Source: Tubiluchus corallicola (Eukaryota > Priapulida > Priapulimorpha > Priapulimorphida > Tubiluchidae). From it: a stretch of 64,000 nt of DNA. The stretch spans positions 186,001-250,000 of the forward strand of contig JAQGDQ010000189.1 of NCBI GenBank assembly GCA_030141605.1. Reading direction: 5' to 3'. A model generated the notes under the pieces. It saw only the letters and a program-made list of their open reading frames with translations. It had not been told where the DNA came from and searched no databases. This document shows positions 28,847 through 51,600 of this stretch, piece by piece. The position numbers and the translations under genes are program-made. How positions within the stretch are numbered: position 1 is the stretch's first letter; each line of letters opens with the position of its first letter.

Positions 28847-31800
28847 AACACTCGTTAAACCGGACTAATTGGGGGAGGGGGGTACGGTTTAGCTGATTGT
28901 CCGATTTATCCGATATGCCTATACATGGTCTATATTATACAGGAATAATCACCTTAATAAGGCCTATATACATTGCACTATATACTATACTGTATATTAC
29001 TTTAAAATAGTTAACCTGTGAGGATAAAGAAATTAGCGAGTGCTTTCGATGGGGTAAGCAAACTGAATTTTGGCGGGAATCGTAGCAGCCTGAGCGGCAC
29101 CGCGAGCCGCTTCGACCTGTCAATGGCTCGTGGTGAGTTGGTAGGCCGTGTTGTGTTTAGCGCTCCGGCTCGGTCGGAAATCGGTCAGTTTCCTTTACCA
29201 CAGATGACGTCCGTCTTATCCGATATCCGGGCTAACGGGGTCCGGTTTAACGAGGGTCGACTGTATATATCAAAACTGTGGTTCATTGTTTGGCTAAGTG
29301 CTAGAAATAATATTATACTAGCAAAGGCCCCGCAAAAGATTTTGCGTATAAATACACGTGTAATGAATAATACGCGAACATCCTACCTAGTCCTCATTTA
29401 TAACACTAAGCCCGTAACATCCTGCCTACTTACCTAACGCAAAGCCAGCAGCGTTTACTCCTGCCTACTGTATGTTGCAAAGCAGCTTTTTGCTGAATTA
29501 AAGTTATAGAGACAATGGATGACGTCAGCACAATGGAATGCGGTCAACACGGTTTTCTAAGCGAAAAATGTCGAAATTTGCGGAAAATAAAACACGTAAT
29601 TAACTCGTTGATACTCCTCTCGGTGGACCTGCCCTAACATATAACCCACATCATCGTGTAGCCCTGTCCTTCCTCTTTGTAAAGAGCTATAAATCTCCTC
29701 CCGAGAGTCCCACCGGGCGACGCTAGAACGTTTTTTCTGCAGGCTGTTTGGCCAAAATTTCGAAAAAATCGCGAGTTGGGTCCGGGAAAACGGCCGTTGC
29801 GGGACCCCGTGGCCCTCTCGCGAATTCTAAATCTGCCTACTACACCCACCGCTGAACGGGCTATCTATCCATACCCAGCACCCCCCTCGGCCCGTTCTCT
29901 ACATCTCAGCCGTATAACTTTTGCAAAAAACGGCCGAAAAAGGGCCATTTTTGGGGGGTTTTCGCCTCCCCCTCCTCCCGGTGGGCCCGATTCGAAAAAT
30001 AAACCATCAATGGCACGACACTAGATCGAGACCTTTCGTTTGATATATAGATCGCCGCAAATGGTGCCCTCGTCCGGGCTGTAGCCTCGAAAATTATATA
30101 TATATAAATTAAGCCCATACCAAGAATATTAATATAAGAGTAAGTATAGATTGCTTATGTAGGGCGCCGCTTCTTTCTTTTGACACCGAGTTGCTTGTTT
30201 ATATGCACTCAGCTTATCATTGTTATCTGCTGACAAGTAGAAAATTGCGCAGATTTTTAACAATTCCGACTCCTTTAGCAATAAATTCACAGGCGACTGC
30301 GATTCCACGGCTTGGAAGTTTCTATAATTACAGTTGTGTCCTTCTAGCGATGAAAAATATCTGAGTTTTCAATTTACCTTGCATAAATTTCGTTTTAAAT
30401 GAATAAAAAAATCTTTGTTTTATTTAGAATCCTGACGATGTTCCCCATCTGCAGTTGTCGTGGGAAATGTTGGAGTTGGCACGAACCATATTCTGTAGGA
30501 AGGAGGACGAGGAATCGAAGTTAAAGGTGGCTCAGGTGTTCCACAAGCTGGGTGAACTTGGCATGGAGCAAGGTTTGTACCGGGGTTTTACGATAATTTG
30601 CACAAATGCACATTTTAAAGTTGAGACGGGTAACCATTTTAGCCTTGTGTAAGAATTCTATATTCTTGACCTTTAATGAATCCAGCATTCATTAGACTTA
30701 CGCAGCAGTGATATAAATGCAGCACATTGGCATTATAGGACCTTTACAAGGTTGAGACGGTTAAACATTTAACTGACTGCTAATTGGTGTAATCGTTTAG
30801 AAAATCACTAATAGTTTAATCGTTGCTTAGCCAAGTTTTCATTAACCTTGCGTGCATTAAGACGTACAAGGTTGAGTGAAATTCTATGATTATGTAGCGG
30901 GGTTAATGTTGTGCAATTTCTTCCTATTAGTTCCTTATGTGTATTTGATATTTTAATAAATGTATGACGTCATCGGGAACAGTTAAACTTTTAAACTTTT
31001 AACCGACCGCAATTAATAACGTTTAAACACTTAATTAAAAAGCTTAATCGTCTCAGCTCTAACACGTTTACGAATTTCTGTCGATCCCCCAAGAGTTCAT
31101 CAATGACGTCAAATACTAAAGCACTCAGAAGACAACCGCGTTTTTCTTTAAAGTACTCACAAAAATTTGTTTTGTTATATAAATAGTAGCATCAGAAAAT
31201 ATTGCAAAATAAGAATTTCGTTTCTGTACTGTGTGGAACGCTGTTGGAACTGCAGCGCCCCCTATTTTCACTCGATGTTGTCTTTTTTCTTTAGTTCTTT
31301 CTCTATACTTATACATTATATAATCCTTAAGCTTAATGTCGGTAGCCATTTTCTACTTTGTGAAAAAACTACAAAAATCATTGTGTGAAACTGCACACTT
31401 CACAGTTCCAGCGATGCGGTGTTTGGCTGTCGTGTTCATGTGGCCATACGCACATGTCTGAGATAAGAAGCTGCACGCTAGGTTGTTGTCAGGGTTCCCA
31501 AGATCAGGGAAAATCCTTGAAAATACGGGCTATCCTGGAAAAGTCAGGGAAAAAGATGATTTGCTAAAAAGTCGGGGAAAATGATGAAAATAGGGCGAAA
31601 AGTCTGGGAAATTGGAAAGGGTTGCAAAATTAATCACCGTAAACCGATATTTTTCCAAACATATTTTTCAGCGATTCGTGTTCAAACAAAATTTTGTTCT
31701 TTCAGGCTCCCAGTTTTGATTTCTGTTCCAAAAATAATAATTGGATTAAGAAAGTTTATTTAATGTCATTAGTGTAATCTTTATAACACTACTGTAACTG

Positions 31801-34800
31801 TGCCGACACATTATGTATCAGTATATGTATGAATGTTTGAGCATGTATACTAGTAATGCAATTTCTGCTTATCTTGGTCATGGAAAATCAACATTTGGTC
31901 CGGGAAATTTATTTTAAAATTCTGTGGGAATCCTGTGTTATGCGAAAGGAAGGTCGTCTTTCTTTTTAACTAAATTTTCTTTTTATGTTTCTTTCGTTTT
32001 ACAAAATATTAAAACAATGGCTAAACGTCTTTTGAAGCATCACCCCCACTAATTTTAACTAAGAGCCACCATTGTTTCTGAGGCAATGTTGACTGTGCTG
32101 TGACAGTTTAGGTCGTAAACTGTTTGGTTTTCTTTGCAGAAACGTACGAACAAAGTATTAACGACTTCAACGAATGTTTGAAACTCCAGCAAGAGCATTT
32201 GGACGAAGATGATAGACTTATTGCGGAAACGTATTCTTTTACAGTAGAGTATTTCAATAATAACTGGTCAGCCAATGCCTTGTTCTTCCTGGAGTAAATG
32301 CAGACAGTTCTCTTGGGCTGTAGCAAGCAGGCGATCAATAAAATAGTGTGTACGTTCATGCAAGTGTACACCAGACTAAGCTACTCAATGGGCTAAGTTG
32401 CAATGTCGGGAAAGGGTGTGGCTGAAGTTAGTGTAGACTGTTGTAGACTGGTTCACTCTGGTGGTTGAGACAAAGAATATGAAATTGTGTTGAACTGTGG
32501 AGACTGAAGTTAGTGTAGACTGTACAAACTTTCTCTGTACCAAAGTGTCCTTGTACTAAACTTTCTCTGTACCAAACTTTCCTAGTACCAAACTTTCTCT
32601 CTACCAAACTTTCCTTGTAACAAATTTTCTCTGTACCTAACGTTCCTTGTACCAAACTAACTTTATCTGTACCTAACTTTTCTTGTACCAAAGTGTTTCT
32701 CTGTACCAAACATTCCTTGTACCACAGTGTTTCTCTGAACCGAACTTTCCTTGTAGCAAACTTTCTCTGTACCGAACTTTTCTTGTACCAAACTTTCTCT
32801 GTACTTAACCTTTCTTGTACCAAACTTTCTCTGTACCAAACTTGCCTTGTACCAAACTTTCTCAGAACGAGACTTTCCTAGTACCAAACTTTCTCTGTAT
32901 CAAACTTCTTGTACCAAACTTTCTCTGTACCATTCTTTGAAATCATCTCACAATACAAGTAAATATTCTGCCACCTCTTTAAGAAACTCCATGAAAATCC
33001 CCATATTAGAAGCCCACAGAGATTATCAAACTCTCCTGTTTCTCTATAAATATATCAACAATATTAATTCTCCTTTCAAAAACAATAAGCTCCCACTTCT
33101 TAAAAACCCCAGTATGAATAACAGAACACTAAATTTAAGAAACATTAGAACGAACAACCAATATGGAAAGAATTCCATTACTAAGCAAGCAATACAACTT
33201 TGGAATTCATTACCGACATCACTAAAACACAGCAGCTCTTTATCAATATTCAAGTCTAAATTAAAAAAAACATTTAATGACTCGTTTTGAATATCCGACA
33301 TACGAACACGATGATACTTACTCAAATCATAATTTTATTTTTCCTAGACCTTACTAAACTAGTTTATATTTTATTTTTTGAATTTCTAGATGCACTTATA
33401 GTTTAGCTTGCACCAGATGCATTTGCCCAGAACAGTGTATGTTTTTTATATGAACTAACACTGATTGTCTGTCTTTTAATATGATGGTCAATGTTTTAAA
33501 ATGGCAAATAAAGATTTTACTACTACTACTGTACCAAACTTTCCTAGTCCCAAACTTTCTCTGTACCTAACTTTTCTTGTATCAAACTTTCTCTGTACCA
33601 AACTTTCTCTGTACCTAACTGTCCTTGTATCAAACTTTTTCTGTACCTAACTTACCTAGTACTGAACTTTCTTTTTACCAAACTTGTTCTGTACAATTTT
33701 TACCTTGTACTATATTTACTTGTACCAAAAGTATTTGTCAAAGCTTCACTAACATTGTAATTACCAGTTCCATTACTCTGTTACCAAATTTTCCCAGTAC
33801 GACAATTTTTCTATATCAAAAATTCCTAATAGCAAATTTTCCAGGTTAAAAATTTCCTCTTACCAAACTTTTTCTTAGTTTTTTATTATAAATGTCGCAA
33901 CCTATGGACTGGGTATATTTTTCTTGTACATATACAATTATTGCTAGCTCCATAATAATTGCATTTTCATTTTGAGTACAACTACATTATCAAGCCTTAA
34001 AAATATGTAATGGCCACCAATAAATAAAAAAATATAAACAAAATGAACCTAAAAGACTGTATCAACAGTCCATGTTTAGAATTAAATATACAGCAACAAT
34101 TTCTCCAAGACGCCATGCTTCCTTATTTACATCTGATAACAGTGCTTAGGCAAACTGCGTCTTATTTACCAGGATAAGTTTTCTGTTTGTTTGCATCACT
34201 TTGCTGTGATTAAGGTACAAAGGTCAGTCCTAATGTCAAGATAAACAATATGCACAAATTTTACTATCACAGCTTGTGGAATTATTTGCTAGAACATCAT
34301 ACTATCTCGTACAAGTTTTCGTGCTTGAAAATAAAATAGAGCATAAGACCATTTTGTATGCTGTTTGTATGATATTTTTGATACACAATATATATTAGCT
34401 ACTTCGGTTTTTCTGCTACCTGACTAAAATATTACAGTGCGAAGTGCTTTTGATTGTTGATATGGAAAAAATCGAGGAACTTATTTACAGTGTGTCAGAC
34501 GCCAATCAAAAATTGGAACTCGAGACGTTACTAACTGGTTACCAATTTGCTCATCTTGGTGCAGACAGAACACAACGGCTCAACAACCTGCTACATGCTG
34601 CAACGTACTTTAACATGCCTGAGCATGTTGATGAACTTCTCAACAGAGGAGCAGAAATAGAAAGTCTATCACCAATCACTAAAAAACGTTCAGAGGGAGG
34701 AACCCCCCTTGGAGTTGCATGTTGTTTGGGACATACCTCTCTTGTTGAGCAACTGATTAAACGGGGTGCTGACATAAACTGTCTTTCTAGAAGCAATGGA

Positions 34801-37800
34801 TGGTCGCCTTTAACAATAGCAGCTTCACAGGGACATACAGAAATTTGTGAAATGTTGTTGTTTCATGGAGCAGAAGTTGATGGCTTCCCAGAAAAGTATA
34901 AAATACGACCTATACAGCATGCATCACAGGAAGGCCACACTGAAATAGTGAAGCTGTTAATTAAATATGGCGCCAAAATTGATGAAGATCCTTACATTTC
35001 AGTTGATGGTCATCCGCCCCTCCATGCTGCAGCATTTCAAGGACAGTTTGGAACCCTTTTTCTGCTTCTTAAAGGTGCAAATGTCTTCTATGCAGATATA
35101 AACGGTAATATCGCTCTGCATTTGGCAGCAAGGCAAGGAAATGTTCATTGTGCAGCACTTCTGATTTTTGCGGGCTCTGACATTCTGGCAGAAAATAATG
35201 ATGGTGAGACCCCACTTTCCATAGCATGTATGAAAGGTAGACTGGATGTTCTTGAACTAACATATAAAAATATACTAGAGAGGTATTCGCACAAAGTAGT
35301 AAGGCAGATAGTAAATGAACGTTACACTGGAGGAAGTTTAATTCATCTGGCTTGTCAAACTGCTCACTTGTCAGCTCAAAGTGTAGATGTTGTTAAATAC
35401 CTCACTGATGTAGGTGTTCACACCGAAACGTTAAATGAATCTCATGAAACGGCTTATGACATGTGCATCCGACGAGCTTACGAAAAGGCATTGAACCAAA
35501 ATTACAAACAAATTGCAGGACTTTTTCTTTCTTATCGGTACTTTCAAATGTGGCAAGAAGTGTCTTCAGAGCTTTCTGTCACAAAGGATGATGAAACAGT
35601 GTCAAAAAACATTTGTGGAATGACTCCACAGGATTTGGTTTCCATGCCTGGACTAGGAACAATTTCAAATGTGGAAGAATTTGACTATATTAGAACCATT
35701 ATAAGGAAATTGTTAGGTGCTGTTAGCAGAATTCTTTACGAAACTCATCGCATAAGATTTGTGCCCATACTTGTTGGCAGTTCGGCTTGTGGAGTAAAGA
35801 TTGGCCAGCCAGATGAGTTTGATTTTTTTGTTGTGGTACAATATGATAAGCTGCACGGAGATTTCACAGCAGATTTACGAAAATTAAAGGAGACATTTTC
35901 CCAATCCCTGTGCAGAGCCGTGGCAACTGGTTTGCAAGAAGAGGAATTTAAAGAAAAAATTGTGCCAAACAGCTTTCCACATGTAGTGGAATGGAATAAA
36001 GTCTGTACATGTTTGAAATTATGTGTTCTGTTGCCAAACAAAAAAATAGCAATCTCTGTAGATGTGACACCATGTGCTGAAGAAGAGGGAGTACCAAAGA
36101 ATGCCAATGATAAATGGCCAGAGGATGTCAACAGTTATCACTACGTGCTCAAACCAGTTGAATCAAAAACAAAAGTTGAACCCGCATTTGCTGTTGCTGA
36201 ATGTGGATTTATAGAGAACTTAGACAACAACCATAAGATGGTGTTGATCCTCATAAAGGTGCTAGTAAAGCCTGTCCTGTATTCTTGCAACAAAGAAATA
36301 CATTTATATCCCAGTCATCTTGCTTCAACATTCCACTCCTGTTTGGTCAGTGCAGATGTCAACTTGCCAGAATTATACAGAGGAATAAAGTATCAACCAG
36401 ATAAGGTCATTGACTCATATATGATAAAAGTGGCCTTCTTGCATGAAGTGGTTACCACTATAGATGGCTGGGGCACAGAAAACTTGAAAGCTTGAGCTGT
36501 CTCTATATTCCAGTACATTGGACATTGTTGCCGAGAAGGCACAATGTTTCACCCACTTCTAAATGATGTCAATATCTTAGAAGATCTGAAACATAAAGAA
36601 ATGAGTGGCATTCCATTGTTAAAATTGGCAGAAGACGCAGCACGTGCTATAGAAAACAAATTAGCTGATGGCACCATACCATCAAATGAAGGTCTAATGG
36701 AACCAAAGTTTGAAAAGTACCATGCTATGCTAAAAACACATGCACTAAATCAGGCGGAAGTAATATGGGTCAAGGCGGCAATTGAGAGATTTGTATTTAA
36801 GATCCGTTTGGGATTGGATAGAACAAAGTGATAAGAAACATCAAAGTGCATCTTAGAAATGCATTAGTCATTTGGCTAAATCTAGTCATCAGAAATCCAA
36901 TGTTTTAATAAGTATTACACAAAATCCAAGCAAATATTTGTATTTGGGAACTCAATGTACATTATCACTTGTACGAAATCGACGTATGCAAAAAATTTCA
37001 ACTGTCCAGTCACAACACTCTGATATACTTTGGCCTCAAGTAGCAGAAAAGTCATAGGTCTTATAAGACGTATTTTCAGTGGCGCGGTCCTGAAAGAGTT
37101 AATCTAGGTTTCAAATGTAGCCTTGTTCACATGGGTTAATTGCCACTGATGGGTCTGGAAGTGCTTCCTTTTCAATTGTGGTGTTCATGGTCTCCATTTG
37201 AATGAATCCTTAGCCTCTTGACAGACATTATAATATCGGTTTAGCTTACAACTACGACAGAAAGTACGAAGACGCCGTCAAGTATTTTGAAAATGCCGTG
37301 AGGATCATCGAGGGAAAAATCTGTAAGTTTTTCTTTCTCGTAGCGAATCATGTTGCTTTGTGCTACAATTGTTAAATTTATGAATTCATTTTGTGCCATA
37401 ATTCTTGAATTATTAGTTCATGATTTATGAATTTGCACTGGTGACTTTAATGATATCACGATCAAAGTTGTTAAACACATTATTGTACATTGTTAGTCAA
37501 CATGTATGCTCACATCGCACATTGGTGGACAAAAACGGGGAGACGTCAGTCTGCGTTTTCCGGTCCGTATTTACTGACACTAAACTAATACACTAGGCGC
37601 TGTGTATTAGGGTCGTGGTAATGTAGAATCAATTGCCTAATCGTCTCAAAAACGTCTAGTACGCGCTTCTCCTACACTAGGCGCTACGTATCAGACTTGT
37701 GGTAATGTAGAATCAATCCCCTAATCGTCTCAAAAACGTCTAGTACGCGCTTCTCCTACACTAGGCGCTACGCATCAGACTTGTGGTAATGTAGAATCAA

Positions 37801-39071: not shown

Positions 39072-42000
39072 TTCTTTATTTGTCGTTAAAATGGCTCACT
39101 CATTATAATAAAATTGAGTAATCCTCAGCGTAATGTTAAAATAACAACACTGTTCAAGACAAATGTGTCCAGTGCAGACTAAAAAAACTAAAGTGCAAAA
39201 TTAAGGGCTAATTATATACAATAAATGAACATATTTACAAACACAATATTAAAATATTTATTACAAAAATTATTTTTATTATCCAAACAATATTACAAAA
39301 ATACATTAAATTTTACATGACATATTTTACACTATATATACATTTAACATGACACAATTAACAGAAACATGCTTTACATTACATAAATTCTAGTATAAAC
39401 TCTAAATAATATTAAAGACTAGTGGTTAAATAGTTTGAGGAACAGTCGATTGAAAATGAGTAGTGAACTTTTTTATAGAACTCACAGAAGAGAAGAAAGA
39501 GGACATCAACAAGGAGCTAGGAGAATTGCGAGACGTTTTACCCGACATCCGAGGAAAGATTGACGACGCGAAGGAGAGCAAAGCGAATGTTCATTTGGTA
39601 CAAGAATCTGGTGATCAGGTATCTTTGCTTGTTTTCATTGAGGTGTTCTCTTGATCGGCTACATACATTAGTTGACTTTTGTATTGTTTTTCATCTTTGT
39701 CTTCTTCTTTCTCTTAACCTGTTTTCATATCTTTGCAAAGATAACTTTTGTTGTAAAATTAACGTTGTATTTATTTAATGAATTGGTGATGGGTTTTGGT
39801 TTGAAGTCATCTAGTCTGTCATTCATTTCCCGTACATACTTGATCTGAATTGTCGAACATCTAACGAACAAAACTTTGTCAATCATATTAAAGAATGATG
39901 CAGTAAAGAAAACAACACCCAAAAAACACACAAACAAACACCCAAAAAACACACAAACACCACCCAAAAAACACACAAACAAACACCCAAAAAACACACA
40001 AACACCACCCAAAAAACACACAAACACCACCCAAAAAACACACAAACATATAGGGCAGTGTGCCTCAAGAAAGTACAGCTATTGCATGTAATTTGTGCAG
40101 TTCTTGGGCAGTGTGCCTCAAGAAAGTACAGCTATTGCATGTAATTTGTGCAGTTCTTGGGCAGTGTGCCTCAAGAAAGTACAGCTATTGCATGTAATTT
40201 GTGCAGTTATAGGGCAGTGTGCCTCAAGAAAGTACAGCTATTGCATGTAATTTGTGCAGTTCTTGGGCAGTGTGCCTCAAGAAAGTACAGCTATTGCATG
40301 TAATTTGTGCAGTTCTTGGGCAGTGTGCCTCAAGAAAGTACAGCTATTGCATGTAATTTGTACAGTTATTGGGCAGTGTGTCTCAAGAAAGTACAGCTAT
40401 TGCACGTAATTTGTACAGTTATTGGGCAGTGTGTCTCAAGAAAGTGCAGCTATTGCATGTAATTTGTACAGTTATTGGGCAGTGTGTCTCAAGAAAGTAC
40501 AGCTATTGCATGTAATTTGTACAGTTATTGGGCAGTGTGTCTCAAGAAAGTACAGCTATTGCACGTAATTTGTACAGTTATTGGGCAGTGTGTCTCAAGA
40601 AAGTGCAGCTATTGCATGTAATTTGTGCAGTTATTGGGCAGTGTGCCTCAAGAAAGTACAGCTATTGCATGTAATTTGTGCAGTTATTGGGCAGTGTGCC
40701 TCAAGAAAGTACAGCTATTGCATGTAATTTGTGCAGTTATTGGGCAGTGTGCCTCAAGAAAGTACAGCTATTGCATGTAATTTGTACAGTTATTGGGCAG
40801 TGTGTCTCAAGAAAGTACAGCTATTGCATGTAATTTGTGCAGTTCTTGGGCAGTGTGCCTCAAGAAAGTACAGCTATTGCATGTAATTTGTACAGTTATT
40901 GGGCAGTGTGTCTCAAGAAAGTACAGCTATTGCATGTAATTTGTGCAGTTATTGGGCAGTGTGCCTCAAGAAAGTACAGCTATTGCATGTAATTTGTGCA
41001 GTTATTGGGCAGTGTGCCTCAAGAAAGTACAGCTATTGCATGTAATTTGTACAGTTATTGGGCAGTGTGCCTCAAGAAAGTACAGCTATTGCATGTAATT
41101 TGTACAGTTATTGGGCAGTGTGTCTCAAGAAAGTACAGCTATTGCATGTAATTTGTACAGTTATTGGGCAGTGTGCCTCAAGAAAGTACAGCTATTGCAT
41201 GTAATTTGTACAGTTATTGGGCAGTGTGTCTCAAGAAAGTACAGCTATTGCATGTAATTTGTACAGTTATTGGGCAGTGTGTCTCAAGAAAGTACAGCTA
41301 TTGCATGTAATTTGTGCAGTTCTTGGGCAGTGTGCCTCAAGAAAGTACAGCTATTGCATGTAATTTGTACAGTTATTGGGCAGTGTGTCTCAAGAAAGTA
41401 CAGCTATTGCATGTAATTTGTGCAGTTATTGGGCAGTGTGCCTCAAGAAAGTACAGCTATTGCATGTAATTTGTGCAGTTATTGGGCAGTGTGCCTCAAG
41501 AAAGTACAGCTATTGCATGTAATTTGTACAGTTATTGGGCAGTGTGCCTCAAGAAAGTACAGCTATTGCATGTAATTTGTGCAGTTATTGGGCAGTGTGC
41601 CTCAAGAAAGTACAGCTATTGCATGTAATTTGTACAGTTATTGGGCAGTGTGCCTCAAGAAAGTACAGCTATTGCATGTAATTTGTACAGTTATTGGGCA
41701 GTGTGCCTCAGAAAGTACAGCTATTGCATGTAATTTGTGCAGTTATTGGGCAGTGTGTCTCAGAAAGTACAGCTATTGCATGTAATTTGTACAGTTATTG
41801 GGCAGTGTGCCTCAAGAAAGTACAGCTATTGCATGTAATTTGTACAGTTATTGGGCAGTGTGTCTCAAGAAAGTACAGCTATTGCATGTAATTTGCTATT
41901 GGGCAGTGTGCAGAAAGTACAGCTATTGCATGTAATTTGTACAGTTATTGGGCAGTGTGCCTCAAGAAAGTACAGCTATTGCATGTAATTTGTGCAGTTA

Positions 42001-45000
42001 TTGGGCAGTGTGCCTCAAGAAAGTACAGCTATTGCATGTAATTTGTACAGTTATTGGGCAGTGTGTCTCAAGAAAGTACAGCTATTGCATGTAATTTGTA
42101 CAGTTATTGGGCAGTGTGTCTCAAGAAAGTGCAGCTATTGCATGTAATTTGTACAGTTATTGGGCAGTGTGTCTCAAGAAAGTGCAGCTATTGCATGTAA
42201 TTTGTACAGTTATTGGGCAGTGTGTCTCAAGAAAGTACAGCTATTGCATGTAATTTGTGCAGTTATTGAGCAGTGTGTCTGAGGAAAGTACACTTATTAT
42301 GCAGTGTATGCAGGGCAGTCTTGACCAGTGTAAACAGCGGCTTCGAGAATGCACTCAGACCCTTAGTGTGCTTTCAACAACCCTTTTTAGCGTAAATTGT
42401 GTCAAGCATTTTTTACTTCCTTAAGAGTCGACTATTAGCCATTAATCAACCCGCTATCTTTCTTCCTTAGAGTCGACTATTAGCTATGAATCAATCCGCT
42501 ATCTTTCTTCCTTAGAGTCGACTATTAGCTATTAATCAACCCGCTATCTTTCTTCCTTAAGAGTCGACTATTAGCTATTAATCAACCCGCTATCTTTCTT
42601 CCTTAGAGTCGACTATTAGCTATTAATCAACCCGCTATCTTTCTTCCTTAAGAGTCGACTATTAGCCATTAATCAACCCGCTATCTTTCTTCCTTAGAGT
42701 CGACTATTAGCTATCAATCAACCCGCTATCTTTCTCTGCTTTTTTGCAGGCTGCTGCTTCATCTGCCTTCCAAAAGACGTCAAATGAGCCAGAAAAAACC
42801 GTCACAAGTATAACACATCTGGTAAGAAAAAAGGTGAGCATTTTTCTTTCCAGCTTTTAAGATCTCGGTTTTTAGTTCACTGTTCGTTGCCGTTTATTAC
42901 CGATAAGAGGGGAATAGCCGACCGATCGTGGTATATTGACTGAACTTGGGTAATGCCAGATTTGGTTAGTGGAGAGGGAGCCACTAGGAAAATTCCTCAA
43001 CTTGCTGCTCTGAATTCATTAAGTTGAGAGAGGAAGTGGCTGGTTCTAAAAGGATCATGCGGTATAATTTTTTACATTTTGGTCCTGCCATATAGTGATG
43101 GACGATTAATCGAGATTAGAACCATACATAAATCGACATAATCGGCTGTTGAACAGTAATTCAGTTAAATAAGATTAATCGACAACAGAATATATGTGTT
43201 ACACGCTGACTGAAAAACAGTGTTATGCACAAATAAACGGAATTCTTGCATTTTTTCTTCATTTTTCTCACCTTACATAATGTGCACAATTGCAAACCTA
43301 TTCGCTTTCACGTGACGCGTGCAGTTGACATAGTAATAGAGTAGCTAATGAATGTACTTGTTTATAAAAAATAGTTTGCAAGAATGAAAATAGTAGACAA
43401 CGACGAAAACCATGAAGAAGTTTATAAGCTGTATTTCGGTGCTGCAACGTATGGAAAATGAAACACTAGGAAATTACCGCAAAAGATTAATCGCGATGTC
43501 GAATTAGAAGAACAAGATTGTAATCGAATTATAAAATTACAAAATTGTCCATCACTGCAGTTTTCTTTGTAAGTTGTCTCAGTGACACTCAGTTTTGGAA
43601 CTGAGTAGTAAACAGTACAGCTAGTCATCGACTTGTGACCGCAATACCTTCCGGCAAATTGGTCGCAAGAGAAATTGGATGCAAGTCAGGCACGTATATG
43701 AAACATGTTCACGCCCCCACCCCCGCGTGTAAGACGTTGTGTATGGCCCAGTATGGCGGCGCTCACAATGAATTTATCAAAAGATTTAACAATTTAAATT
43801 AATTTGTTTGAAAAATAGAAGGAAATATGAATTATAATTAGCTTTGCGCATACACTCATATTTCGGTTTGCTGGACAAAGGCGGGGAGATGTTGGTCCGA
43901 ATTTGCCAGTTGTCCGTATTTTCCGTTACTAAGGCGATGTAGTAGGTGCCGTGTGTTAAACTCACGGTAATGTAGAATCAATCACCTCATTGTCTCTTTG
44001 ACGTCTAGTACGTGCCGCTCCTATGCAAAAGTGTATAAAAACTGTCAGAAATTGATTCGAATAACTCTGCATAATTGACCCTAAAGCACTTAAACACGTT
44101 GATTGAACCGCTAGACACGCTGACATAAAAGCTACACGCATGTCGTTACATGCTGTTTGGATGTAAACAAAGTGCCGACCCGCCAAATAAAGGTCAGCTT
44201 GTGAAGTAACGGACAGTGCCTGAATTTTTTTCGAATTTCCGATATCTGTAAAAGCGAGGTCCGGCAAACCGAGATGTACGTGTAATTAAGTTAAGTTATG
44301 GTCGGGTCGTAAAGTGGAACAGATGTAACTCATGTATGTCTTAACTACCTGAATTAGCTACTTCGTGTTCGTGCTACTTAGAAGCCCTGAAATATGATTT
44401 TCTCCTGCAACTGTAAAATTAGTGGACATGTTTTTTTCATCAAAGTCCAGAATTCTATTCAACCATTGTTTTTTCATAGAGAAAGCCTGAAGATGAAGAA
44501 CCGATCGGTGGCGACACCTGCAAAAAGGCAAAACAAGAGGATAGCAATGGTGAACCATCAATAGTTAACGGAACAAATGGTTGTGTGGATGAACCTATGA
44601 ATGAAGCGGAGCAGGTATTCATTTGTGACGTTTGAATTTTGAATGAAACGGAGCAGGTATTCATTTGTGACGTTTGAATTTTGAGTGAAGCGGAGCAGGT
44701 ATTCATTTGTGACGTTTGAATTTTGAATGAAGCGGAGCAGGTATTCATTTGCGATGTTTGTATTTTGAATGAAACGGAGCAGGTATTCTTTTGTGACGTT
44801 TGAATTTTGAATGAAGCGGAGCAGGTATTCATTTGTGACGTTTGATTTTTGAATGAAACAGAGCGGGTATTCATTTGTGATGTTTGAATTTTGAATGAAG
44901 CGGAGCAGGTATTCATTTGCGACGTTTGTATTTTGAATGAAACGGAGCAGGTATTCTTTTGTGACGTTTGAATTTTGAATGAAACGGAGCAGGTATTCAT

Positions 45001-48706: not shown

Positions 48707-51600
48707 TTAAGTACCTTTGCATTATGCATTTTTAAAACAACGGAGGGTGTAGTAAGTTACATTTTTCAGGAAAAATATTCTGTTAATGTTATTACGTAGT
48801 ATATGACTTGTCAGTAAATTGGATTAGTGTTTGTAGGCTGAGGCAAATCGTGTCACCCCAGTATTTATTATAGTTGCATCTGTCTTCTCAGTGCTTCATG
48901 TCGTATGTGCTGTTTTGTTATTTTTGTTTTATTTATTTTTTGAAATTCGGACAAATAAGGACTAGGAAATATTCTATTCTGTTCAAATGGATCTAACAAA
49001 ATATTGGCTAATTTTACAACAAGTAGTAATAAAGTGTAACATACAAACGACTCTTACAAGACCTATTCTGAATGGTGCCGTCCTGAAGGAGTTGGTCTTT
49101 AATTATTTTGACTGATGCTTTAGTTAATGTCTTCCATTTATAAAATAATGATTTAAAATTTATTTCAGTTTTTTAGCTCATTAAGTGGGATAGTTCCATT
49201 TGCCAGCAACAAACTCTAAAGCAGACTCATAAAAAAATGTCGAGATATCTGCAAAGCATTCCCGTGCAGACCTGTGCGAGGCAGCTCCATGGTAGGACGT
49301 CCTCAATATCCATATATTCAATGTTGGGCAGTTTCACTAGCTGTGCTGCTGACAATCATGCATTTCAGGGGTATGACTTCGAAATGGCTCCTCCTTTCGT
49401 CTGCAAGTTTTCGAGAACAGATCCGCACGTTTTTGTACTTGCCAACGAGGAAGGTACAGTGCACCTGTACGACAGCAACCTTCCAGGTGAAGCTAGTTTA
49501 ATAAGGACGTGGTCTGCTCATTCGAATGCAGTGTTCGATGTATCATGGATGCCGGGCGAATCAAAGCTTGTCACAGCATCAGGAGATCAGAAATGCATCT
49601 TATGGGATGTTACCACTAATGCACTTCTGGCCACATTGAAAGGTCACGTGTGCAGCGTAAAATCTGTAGATTTTTGTCGCGACGACAGAAATGTTTTGGC
49701 AACCGGATCGAGAGACGGAAACGTCATGATCTGGGATCTGCGAGTGAATAACAGCGGTGGATTTCATCGAGCCATGAAAGTCATTGCGAATGCACACGTG
49801 ACCCAGGAACGTGATGTCAGATCTGCACAGAACTCTAAAAAACGAAAACGTACTGCCGAATTTAAACCACATAGCGTCACCTCGGTCGCTTTTCAAAACG
49901 ACCACATGTTGTACTCGTCCGGCGCAATTGATGCAACGATAAAAGGCTGGGACTTGCGGACAGGTTACTACACCCACTTTCCAAAGTACCTGTTTCCTTA
50001 TTGTGGTAGAGGTGATCGCAGACGTGGTTTCTCACACATCATGTTCAATTCCGGATATACGAAACTTGTCGCTAACTGCATGGATAACGTGATCTATGTT
50101 TACGACTGCATCACTTTTTCGAGTGAACCCATCGCAAGGTTTGCCGGCCATTTGAACTCTTCGTTTTACGTGAAGTCCGCATTATCTCCGGAAGATCAAT
50201 TTCTGGTAACCGGATCCGGAGACGGCAATGCGTACATTTATGATTTCTCCAGACCTCGTGCAGTTCCATACGTTTTACAAGGTCATGAAGCGGAAGTGAC
50301 TGGCGTCACCTGGTGTCCAACTGACATCACGAAAATGGTTACATGTGGAGATGACACAACGATGATGTGGCGTCTGTCTCGCCAGCCGCATTCGCACCTG
50401 GACCTTGCAGGAACGGCAAAGAAGAGCGAAATTCCTTCAGGACGAATCAGTTGGCAACCTCTAAACACCCACACTGAGCTGGAGAAAACACCTAAGAAAC
50501 CGGTTCCGAAAACTAGAGCAGCATCTGCCGTTTGTTCAAGTCCGTTAAAAGAGAACAGTGGCAACATTGCAAAAGCGAGTGAATGTGCCAAATTCGGCGA
50601 CAAAGTGTGTGAATACTCGCAATCTCCAACGGCCAATTTACCAAATTCAGTTCTAGATGGTATGGGAGCACCACACGCTCAAGCGCATGTCAGTGAGAAA
50701 AAATCGGCTGCACAAAACTGGTTGAGAACTCTAAGCTTGAAAAAGCAAAAGGAGAACGGTTGTGAGAAGCGAAGAGGAAACGTGACGCCCAAATCGATCA
50801 TTCCGTCACCAAGCTTCTCAAAGACGAAGCGAAGGAGACGTTCTACTACAAATTGCAAAACACTGTTATCCTATTTTAATGCTGACCAAAACTCAAAACC
50901 TAAAACAAGCTAGTGAGCATTTTATAACATTTCAAAAACTATTTATTTTCTTAAAACTCGTTTGCGTGACTCACTCAGTGTTTTCACGGTCTTGTTGTGT
51001 GTATGGCCAGTTGCTGTAGATCAGAGGTTAAGTGTACCACAGCAATGCATCTTAAGTACAATCGTCACATGAGTTGTGGGTATAGCAAAGCCTTCTGCCG
51101 CATTAGTTCGGAAACTAACGTAACATGGAGTTTACTTAGTTATACATTAGTCTGTAGGTAAAGTGATTTACTAGCAGGATGTTGCTTAGCAGTAAGAAAA
51201 AATGAACTAAGTTAGGTTCTAGCTAGCTGTTAAAACTGTTATTATTAAAATAGGATGGGCTGCGATCCGTTATCAAGTGTACAGAAATGGGTTGTCTGGT
51301 ACACTTAACCTTTTCCCGATCATCGTCAATCGCTGGAACTGTGAAAATACTTACTGTGCAGGTTTTAAAAGTGCAAAGTAACTGTTTAGGTTTGTTTTAC
51401 TATTTTGTGAAAAGAGACGTGGATCAAAACGAATAATCTTGCTCAGAACTTTTCCTCTATAGGACGTTCACTTATCCCACTTTGGCTTTAAAATTACTCA
51501 ATATCCCTCTACTGTGACTTTTAATTTAGATTATAAATTAAGGTTTATCTTCATTGATACAAAATTTAAAGCAAAAAACACAAAAGTCCAACAGTCATTT
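48707..51600 (+). repeat. Segmental duplication, copy A (DTL-A block)
   Basis: Similar to 59087-62610 in direct orientation, from CCTTTGCATTATGCATTTTT on the left to CAAAATTTAAAGCAAAAAAC on the right, including 5' and 3' flanks as well as the gene. Copy A has about 100 bases after the stop (50917-51010) that copy B lacks. Confidence 0.88.
49237..50913 (+). CDS. DTL: DTL/Cdt2 (denticleless), CRL4 substrate receptor, copy A
   Basis: Cdt2 is the WD40 receptor of the CRL4 ubiquitin ligase that destroys Cdt1, p21 and Set8 when they are bound to PCNA on DNA. This intronless 558-residue protein has a WD40 propeller over about 55-385: VLANEEGTVHLYD, WMPGESKLVTASGDQKCILW, NVLATGSRDGNVMIWDLR, DQFLVTGSGDGNAYIYDF, EVTGVTWCPTDITKMVTCGD. 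Two WDxR (DWD box) motifs at 166-169 and 238-241 are the DDB1-docking signature. A basic KKRKR at 201-205 sits in the loop between them, where human DTL also has a basic segment. The C-terminus has KTLLSYFNADQ (541-551), matching the terminal PIP box of vertebrate Cdt2 (RKICTYF), which binds PCNA. It is shorter than human DTL (730 aa) because the disordered tail is compact. With intact motifs this is the likelier ancestral copy. Lack of introns would suit a retrocopy, but no poly(A) scar was seen. Confidence 0.94.
   Translation: MSRYLQSIPVQTCARQLHGRTSSISIYSMLGSFTSCAADNHAFQGYDFEMAPPFVCKFSRTDPHVFVLANEEGTVHLYDSNLPGEASLIRTWSAHSNAVFDVSWMPGESKLVTASGDQKCILWDVTTNALLATLKGHVCSVKSVDFCRDDRNVLATGSRDGNVMIWDLRVNNSGGFHRAMKVIANAHVTQERDVRSAQNSKKRKRTAEFKPHSVTSVAFQNDHMLYSSGAIDATIKGWDLRTGYYTHFPKYLFPYCGRGDRRRGFSHIMFNSGYTKLVANCMDNVIYVYDCITFSSEPIARFAGHLNSSFYVKSALSPEDQFLVTGSGDGNAYIYDFSRPRAVPYVLQGHEAEVTGVTWCPTDITKMVTCGDDTTMMWRLSRQPHSHLDLAGTAKKSEIPSGRISWQPLNTHTELEKTPKKPVPKTRAASAVCSSPLKENSGNIAKASECAKFGDKVCEYSQSPTANLPNSVLDGMGAPHAQAHVSEKKSAAQNWLRTLSLKKQKENGCEKRRGNVTPKSIIPSPSFSKTKRRRRSTTNCKTLLSYFNADQNSKPKTS

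Follow-up and report, generated by a model that had tools for sequence, protein, structure and literature searches.

A 64,000-nucleotide stretch of the Tubiluchus corallicola genome (positions 186,001-250,000 of contig JAQGDQ010000189.1, hereafter the window) harbours, on its forward strand and inside an intron of the NASP gene, one member of a dispersed gene family in which ankyrin repeats are fused to an enzyme of the cGAS/Mab-21 type. The ankyrin binding face of this family is under diversifying selection among the copies, and the genes appear to have multiplied along with a repeat element whose ends are marked by TTAA. The window copy, as its in-frame stop indicates, is a truncated member of the family. 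The family is best read as a repeat-embedded, diversifying set of ankyrin-gated cGAS-like receptors (cGLRs), among which the window copy is broken, and this reading is assigned a probability of about 0.6. All of the data derive from one assembly, T. corallicola GCA_030141605.1.

The gene family and its ankyrin face

The window gene begins with an uninterrupted open reading frame (ORF) of 677 amino acids (34462-36495, forward strand, as are all parts of the gene given here), which starts at an ATG, encodes the ankyrin repeats and the N-terminal part of the enzyme, and ends at an in-frame TGA (36493-36495). The ankyrin solenoid, delimited by Pfam (Ank_2, E 2.4e-42) and recognised by the substitution and register analyses below as the fast-evolving part, occupies residues 40-270 (34579-35271), while the nucleotidyltransferase region, assigned by Pfam and profile search, covers residues 411-677 (35692-36492). 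Six ankyrin repeats fit a 33-residue register, and visual reading adds one more ahead of these; the count of about seven that an earlier note on this DNA had proposed is thereby upheld for six repeats, the first being discernible by eye only. The same note had described an intronless gene in one frame from 34462 to 36831. Its intronless start is borne out, whereas the claimed single frame is interrupted by the TGA and reopens behind it for 111 codons (36496-36831), whose homology to the C-terminal end of intact siblings is shown by alignment. Since the Mab-21_C domain of the window copy passes its Pfam cut-off (25.1 bits versus 24.1) solely with the stop read through, the TGA sits inside the Mab-21_C lobe, a C-terminal lobe of HhH/H2TH-like type. 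A sense codon stands at this position in the 12 other close copies of the alignment used, from which L016 is absent, and in the more distant L015. Owing to this stop, the window copy is probably dead and probably not a working receptor.

Searching the genome (343.5 Mb in 2344 contigs) at the protein level yielded at least 88 matches at E<=1e-10. These comprise at least 14 close copies, the window copy included, each of which lies on a separate contig and shares 86-92% DNA identity over the matched unit. Amino acid identity amounts to 79-83% in ten siblings and 74-88% in three more, each split in two matches; L015 (contig C1860) follows with 68%, and the remaining matches are lower or fragments. 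An intact single ORF of 794-851 amino acids from a conserved ATG is retained in 10 of the 14 close copies (L005, L006, L007, L010-L014, L017 and L018), and the four broken ones are the window copy, L016, L009 (at its 5' end) and L008 (which ends at 766 amino acids in another frame). Because ankyrin repeats and enzyme share one open frame in L015 and L019-L022 as well, the intronless coding part is a trait of the family and no mark of insertion in the window.

Several other origins were considered and rejected or disfavoured. Recent retroposition of an mRNA is contradicted for the window copy by the lack of poly(A) at its 3' edge and by an upstream flank that is shared to ATG-565, and it is also undercut by the single frame of the close copies, L015 and L019-L022. 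Two identical triplets of contigs (C2196/C2262/C2263 and C27/C1935/C2101) were not accepted as recent jumps, since at 100% identity over 5.2-5.6 kb they probably represent assembly duplicates, as do the sets L045-L047 and L048-L050, three contigs each with this identity and length. A viral or phage origin is disfavoured: none of 38 pattern matches in viral contigs was confirmed as a relative, and of eight phage records with a match, the five listed align with the ankyrin repeats and the residues that follow directly (44-397 or 117-341).

The family also displays local rearrangements. Contig C221 (~62449-74826) carries tandem short family pieces (residues ~369-486) near a broken copy, and contig C2284 (117428-120852) bears a copy split by further breaks, the middle of which is inverted in situ. 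In L017 and L018, a 36-nt unit is repeated in tandem within the linker that joins the ankyrin repeats to the enzyme, the length of which varies among copies.

The ratio of replacement to silent substitution rates (dN/dS) was estimated pairwise from 13 copies (78 pairs), where the outgroup L015 (68%) and the broken L016 were left out and L009 was taken from its own later ATG; intervals are bootstraps over codons with 2000 replicates, and residues 1-39 have no value owing to gaps. The ankyrin part gives a dN/dS of 2.03 (1.49-2.87), with 0 of 2000 bootstraps at or below 1. Residues 271-370 give 0.80 (0.52-1.23), the linker (371-410) 0.82 (0.43-1.88) and the nucleotidyltransferase core (411-610) 0.86 (0.56-1.38), and a stretch of the enzyme lobe (611-640) reaches 2.33 (1.02-8.00). 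Clear constraint is confined to the end of the enzyme part (641-745), at 0.46 (0.26-0.81). In terms of dN alone, the ankyrin part stands at 0.138 versus 0.058 for residues 411-610. The adjacent non-coding distance, calculated from 12 copies (66 pairs, with L008, L015 and L016 left out), is 0.058 upstream and 0.045 downstream, and the ankyrin dN equals 2.4 to 3.1 times this distance; because the ankyrin dS (0.068) is close to the non-coding distance, a high mutation rate is no cause of the elevated dN. In six disjoint closest pairs (12 copies, a set that left out the window copy besides L015 and L016), the replacement rate is higher than the silent one in all six, and the pooled changes comprise 316.75 replacement and 58.25 silent ones (binomial p 7.7e-6).

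Within the 33-residue register of the six repeats, replacement peaks at positions 13, 5, 3, 10 and 14, and the ratio for these five positions, picked after seeing the data, is 4.2 versus 1.1 elsewhere. Designed ankyrin binders randomise repeat positions 2, 3, 5, 13, 14 and 33. This set, which was not fitted yet was tested after the variable columns had been seen, gives a ratio of 3.3, and none of 20000 random six-position sets carried as much replacement change. The variable repeat positions lie on the concave binding face of the ankyrin solenoid.

Some of the figures tell against the reading as ankyrin-gated receptors, namely the 4 broken copies among 14, the dN/dS of 1.19 for all codons to 745 (0.98-1.45, with 80 of 2000 bootstraps at or below 1) and a nucleotidyltransferase core that is not clearly constrained. 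The broken copies, accompanied by more diverged fragments, and the overall interval touching 1 would suit a family decaying under relaxed constraint, in which the apparent selection is an artefact. Decay of this kind predicts a dN/dS near 1, whereas the ankyrin value is about 2 and the ankyrin dN surpasses the adjacent non-coding rate severalfold as given above; moreover, the changes are register-specific, most ORFs are intact and residues 641-745 are constrained, which renders relaxed decay most improbable.

The enzyme and the proposed receptor function

Searched against the PDB, a profile of 18 in-genome relatives retrieved 42 distinct sequences at E<=1, and all 42 are named cGAS, cGAS-like receptor or Mab-21, or are uncharacterized (4jlx, 4kb6), the best match being 8gjy (cGLR1) with an E value of 2.8e-11. 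Pfam (E<=0.1) detects Mab-21_C in 17 and Mab-21 in 16 of these 18 relatives, and the diverged relatives C918, C1560 and C2143 exceed the Pfam cut-off for Mab-21. The profile search could have placed the C-terminal domain outside the Mab-21/cGAS family; it found this superfamily alone, and the family call of the earlier note is thus confirmed. This placement depends on the diverged relatives, because a profile of 12 siblings (11 close copies and L015) gives just 8gjy, at an E value of 0.032. With phmmer, the whole window ORF returned ankyrin-repeat proteins in the best 60 of 484 matches, and its nucleotidyltransferase half alone gave no match in the PDB at E<=1.

The three catalytic acids are kept in all 15 copies (14 close copies and L015) and in four of four diverged relatives. 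In the window copy they are E452 and D454, within the E452-F453-D454 codons at 35815-35823, and D534 in SVDVTP (36061-36063), so the intact triad previously reported is indeed present. The second and third acids are separated by 70-87 residues across the 15 copies, by 90 in L019 and by 99-110 in L020-L022. When the cGLR motif is loosened so that GS may follow any residue and the gap may reach 95, it is matched by 17 of 19 sequences, L012 and L019 failing, and the match in L020-L022 is not located at the SVDVTP acid. A zinc-thumb motif (H-x5-CC-x6-C) was found in none of the 19 sequences, and the zinc thumb is missing from many cGLRs.

Against the assignment stand the lone match of the sibling profile and Mab-21 scores below the Pfam cut-off of 24.1 bits (13.9 bits for the catalytic half of the window copy alone, and 20.2 bits for L005, in which Mab-21_C scores 29.8 bits). 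The single-sequence AlphaFold model of the window protein has a mean pLDDT (predicted local distance difference test) of 38.5. In addition, the strict cGLR motif, h[QT]GS-x8-20-[DE]h[DE]h-x50-90-h[DE]h, is matched by 0 of 19 sequences: the published form wants Q or T before GS, where the aligned copies have V and all 19 have V or another residue. In a profile alignment, 7lz3, a PDB chain named cyclic GMP-AMP synthase, likewise has V before GS. On balance, the family is regarded as cGAS/Mab-21 superfamily proteins (Pfam PF03281 and PF20266) that would work like cGLRs, their place in the curated cGLR set being left aside.

The V in place of Q or T could also point to a Mab-21-type scaffold devoid of enzyme activity, and a passage of Li et al. 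(PMC9980059) describes it as not understood whether Mab21L1-related proteins yield a product. Such a scaffold is quite unlikely in the light of the three acids retained in every copy and relative compared and of the V that 7lz3 shares.

STING_LBD has 22 matches above the Pfam cut-off on 10 contigs of the genome, some of them possibly assembly duplicates. STING-type domains mean that a cyclic-nucleotide pathway is available, and we infer a link between it and the ankyrin-cGAS family. In the intact members, in which six or seven repeats and the enzyme form one frame, the concave ankyrin face would most likely bind a protein ligand or partner, be it a pathogen protein or a guarded self protein. 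This binding would switch the enzyme on, and the activated enzyme would make a cyclic nucleotide to be read by the STING proteins of the genome. Selection for ankyrin faces that differ between copies would provide a small repertoire of specificities on one enzyme. Judged from sequence, the intact members are probably receptors whose ankyrin face binds a protein ligand and whose enzyme makes a nucleotide signal. The fuller proposal, that a cGAS-like gene has multiplied with the TTAA repeat and that rewriting of the ankyrin face in each copy channels many specificities into one nucleotide pathway, is tentative and is held at somewhat less than even odds. The earlier note had envisaged an innate immune sensor with an unusual input domain; the selection on the ankyrin face fits the idea of a sensor, while the window copy itself is probably non-working and the fusion of ankyrin repeats to a cGLR had already been published.

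Positive selection by itself cannot separate sensing from escape. The ankyrin face might diversify in order to evade inhibitors made by pathogens or to keep pace with self partners that evolve fast, with the enzyme lobe sensing another ligand such as nucleic acid, and the rapid change of residues 611-640 in that lobe is compatible with this. This explanation is rather unlikely, considering that the changes follow the 33-residue register onto the ankyrin binding face and that the zinc-thumb motif is absent from all 19 sequences. For the preferred reading as ankyrin-gated receptors, the diversification of the ankyrin face suggests that proteins or peptides are seen, and nucleic acid less so; an enzyme that changes less than the ankyrin face points to the latter as the recognition surface and names the residues to swap.

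The TTAA-ended element and the spread of the copies

The repeated unit common to the siblings extends in the window from an abrupt left edge at 33897 to 37042 (forward strand, 86-92% DNA identity). The window retains just the right part of the TTAA-ended element (36928-37102, forward strand), from which about 345 nt after 37042 are missing in comparison with the siblings. Its terminal inverted repeat (TIR), TTAACTCTTTCAGGACCGC (37084-37102, reverse strand), constitutes the common 3' end of the unit: many copies end in ...GGTCCTGAAGGAGTTAA, beyond which the flanks diverge, and the reverse complement TTAACTCCTTCAGGACC forms the 5' end in L007, L009, L010, L011, L016 and L018. With up to 5 mismatches allowed, at least one element end is found in 13 of the 14 close copies and none in L013. 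TIRs are present at both ends of L010, of L011 and, with more mismatches, of L009, and at one end in ten others. The 19-mer TTAACTCYTTCAGGACCGC has 401 genome matches (<=1 mismatch) versus 0 for a reversed control. At 8 of 16 sampled places among the 401, a second end lies at a distance of 690-855 nt (in two cases with 5 mismatches), the element being about 700 nt long and TTAA-terminated.

The clearest arrangement is seen in L010, where the gene region (~ATG-1479 to STOP+97) lies between the left ~516 nt and the right ~480 nt of the element. These partial elements run in the same direction, have ~280 nt in common and delimit a unit of 4989 nt from TTAA to TTAA. The gene is placed between two same-direction partial elements in 7 of the 14 close copies (L007, L009, L010, L011, L013, L014 and L016); L006 differs in having an entire element upstream, and L017 has one that is inverted. 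A TTAA target and terminal inverted repeats are traits of the piggyBac-type superfamily. Of the 47 piggyBac-type matches (PF13843), 21 fall in 16 loci that were examined; none of these loci disclosed a transposase with the ends of this element, and two other TIR types occur at 4 of the 16. They belong to two other piggyBac-type families, which have transposase matches and their own TTAA TIRs, TTAACCTTTATCTTACC (L039, L044) and TTAACGGTTAATCTAC (L041, L042).

The flanks of L010 are found joined by one TTAA in other repeat copies, in that L058 and L059 run through a single TTAA; L060, a third repeat copy across the junction, has TCAA instead. We read the continuity of L058 and L059 as a TTAA empty site for L010. 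The same joined-flank search found no empty site for L011. At least seven distinct 3' flanks exist (L005/L011 shared, L006, L010, L012/L016 shared, L014, L017 and the window), and 3' homology stops at or within ~7 nt of TTAA at a minimum of seven junctions with different flanks; 5' homology among L007/L011, L009 and L010 stops within 1-2 nt of TTAA.

The match past the L010 junction is, however, short (16-17 nt in L058 and L059, 8 nt in L060). A jump of the whole unit is weakened by the divergence of the element ends. Compared with L010, the inner flanks keep an identity of 0.89-0.99 (0.93-0.98 for the most part), whereas identity in the outermost windows is 0.78-0.92 at the left end and 0.73-0.85 at the right end, and gene-bearing versus solo elements, at 0.80-0.81, come near this outermost level. 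Over the right outer 150 nt, identity is 0.848 between gene copies, 0.800 between gene copies and solo elements and 0.779 between solo elements. The left outer 160 columns give 0.845 for gene-gene and 0.813 for gene-solo comparisons, and the whole left part 0.734 versus 0.746; this left-end comparison gives no sign of left ends travelling with the gene.

Recombination into resident solo elements would account for the diverged ends, as would gene conversion that altered them afterwards. It stands at an even chance that the genes moved by recombination between solo elements, as in break repair templated by a gene-bearing element, with no transposition of the whole unit: the contrast between inner and outermost windows and the right-end identities support it, while it is opposed by the abrupt end of homology at TTAA in different 3' flanks and by a tree in which the right-hand parts of 10 gene copies stand apart from those of 10 solo elements (with a support of 82/98 from a bootstrap that had not settled). 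The TTAA junctions and the grouping of right-hand parts do not decide the copying route, because every element end is a TTAA and later gene conversion looks alike. Ordinary segmental duplication did produce some copies, as the 5' flank common to L007/L011 and the 3' flanks common to L005/L011 and to L012/L016 indicate. As the sole mechanism, with the terminal repeats as bystanders, it is disfavoured and very unlikely, given that homology at the other readable junctions stops at TTAA against different flanks and that the L010 empty site exists in two other repeat copies. By whichever of these routes the ankyrin-cGAS genes multiplied with the TTAA-ended repeat, such an element offers a way in which animals could expand genes of the cGLR type.

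The NASP intron and comparison with known systems

The NASP intron is one among many genomic sites of the family. Upstream of the window copy, NASP chains of the PDB are matched by a piece at 30428-30649 (E 1.6e-7 over query residues 3-51), and the frame translation reads as a further NASP exon at ~32143-32231; just 3' of the copy, an exon at 37225-37322 (forward strand) encodes tetratricopeptide repeats (TPR) and matches many TPR proteins, with NASP lower down at E 5.5e-5. Since the exons at ~32143-32231 and 37225-37322 flank the copy, the host intron spans about 5 kb (~32232-37224, forward strand, approximate boundaries), and the nesting of the gene within NASP on the same strand, as first described, holds.

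The host intron also contains 16-nt minisatellites (32520-32932 and 33529-33725), and related minisatellites lie upstream of several members, namely L012 (ATG-1947 to -494), the window copy (32520-33725), L005 and L019. An ORF at 32757-33290 may resemble the tail of a non-LTR retrotransposon, a likeness which we assume and for which Pfam has no match over 32928-33287. Downstream of the exon at 37225-37322, a 53-nt unit is repeated in tandem about 42 times with 96% matches (40049-42292), and a single-frame ORF of 578 codons (49177-50913; Pfam WD40, E 5.2e-34) encodes a WD40 protein that may be DTL/CDT2.

Ankyrin-cGLRs have been described as a minority architecture, with the coral Stylophora pistillata among the carriers, in the text of Li et al. 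(PMC9980059), in which 87% of cGLRs are bare enzymes and cGLR numbers are high in cnidarians and bivalves. The Tubiluchus family shares with them the fusion of ankyrin repeats to a cGAS-like enzyme and differs in the V that replaces Q or T of the motif; the main text of that paper contains neither "transposon" nor "intron", and nothing on selection at the ankyrin face was found in it. Searches of an open-access library listed neither a cGLR borne by a transposon nor selection acting on the ankyrin face of one, which does not prove that such work is missing from print. Relative to the literature found, the amplification of a cGLR family with a TTAA repeat and the diversifying selection focused on its ankyrin face would seem to be new, and the family bears on the open question of what appended domains contribute in cGLRs.

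With vertebrate cGAS, the family has in common the catalytic acids, the K-I-x-x-P-x-E-F-D block and the C-terminal lobe, as seen in profile alignments, and it is distinguished by its N-terminal ankyrin solenoid and the lack of the zinc-thumb motif. The element resembles non-autonomous elements of the piggyBac type in the TTAA at both ends together with an empty site, in its TIRs and in the 401 TIR matches, and departs from them in carrying, between two partial elements, a complete coding gene of host type. The closest parallel for the selection comes from fungal NLRs with ANK, TPR or WD repeats, in which, according to PMC4986451, diversifying selection in the ankyrin repeats falls on their inner helices and on the hairpin loops. 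Both are repeat receptors with selection at the repeat binding face, the concave surface in the case of ankyrin; the fungal proteins, in which repeat number is polymorphic as well, couple this face to a NACHT or NB-ARC switch, whereas the priapulid family couples it to a nucleotidyltransferase.

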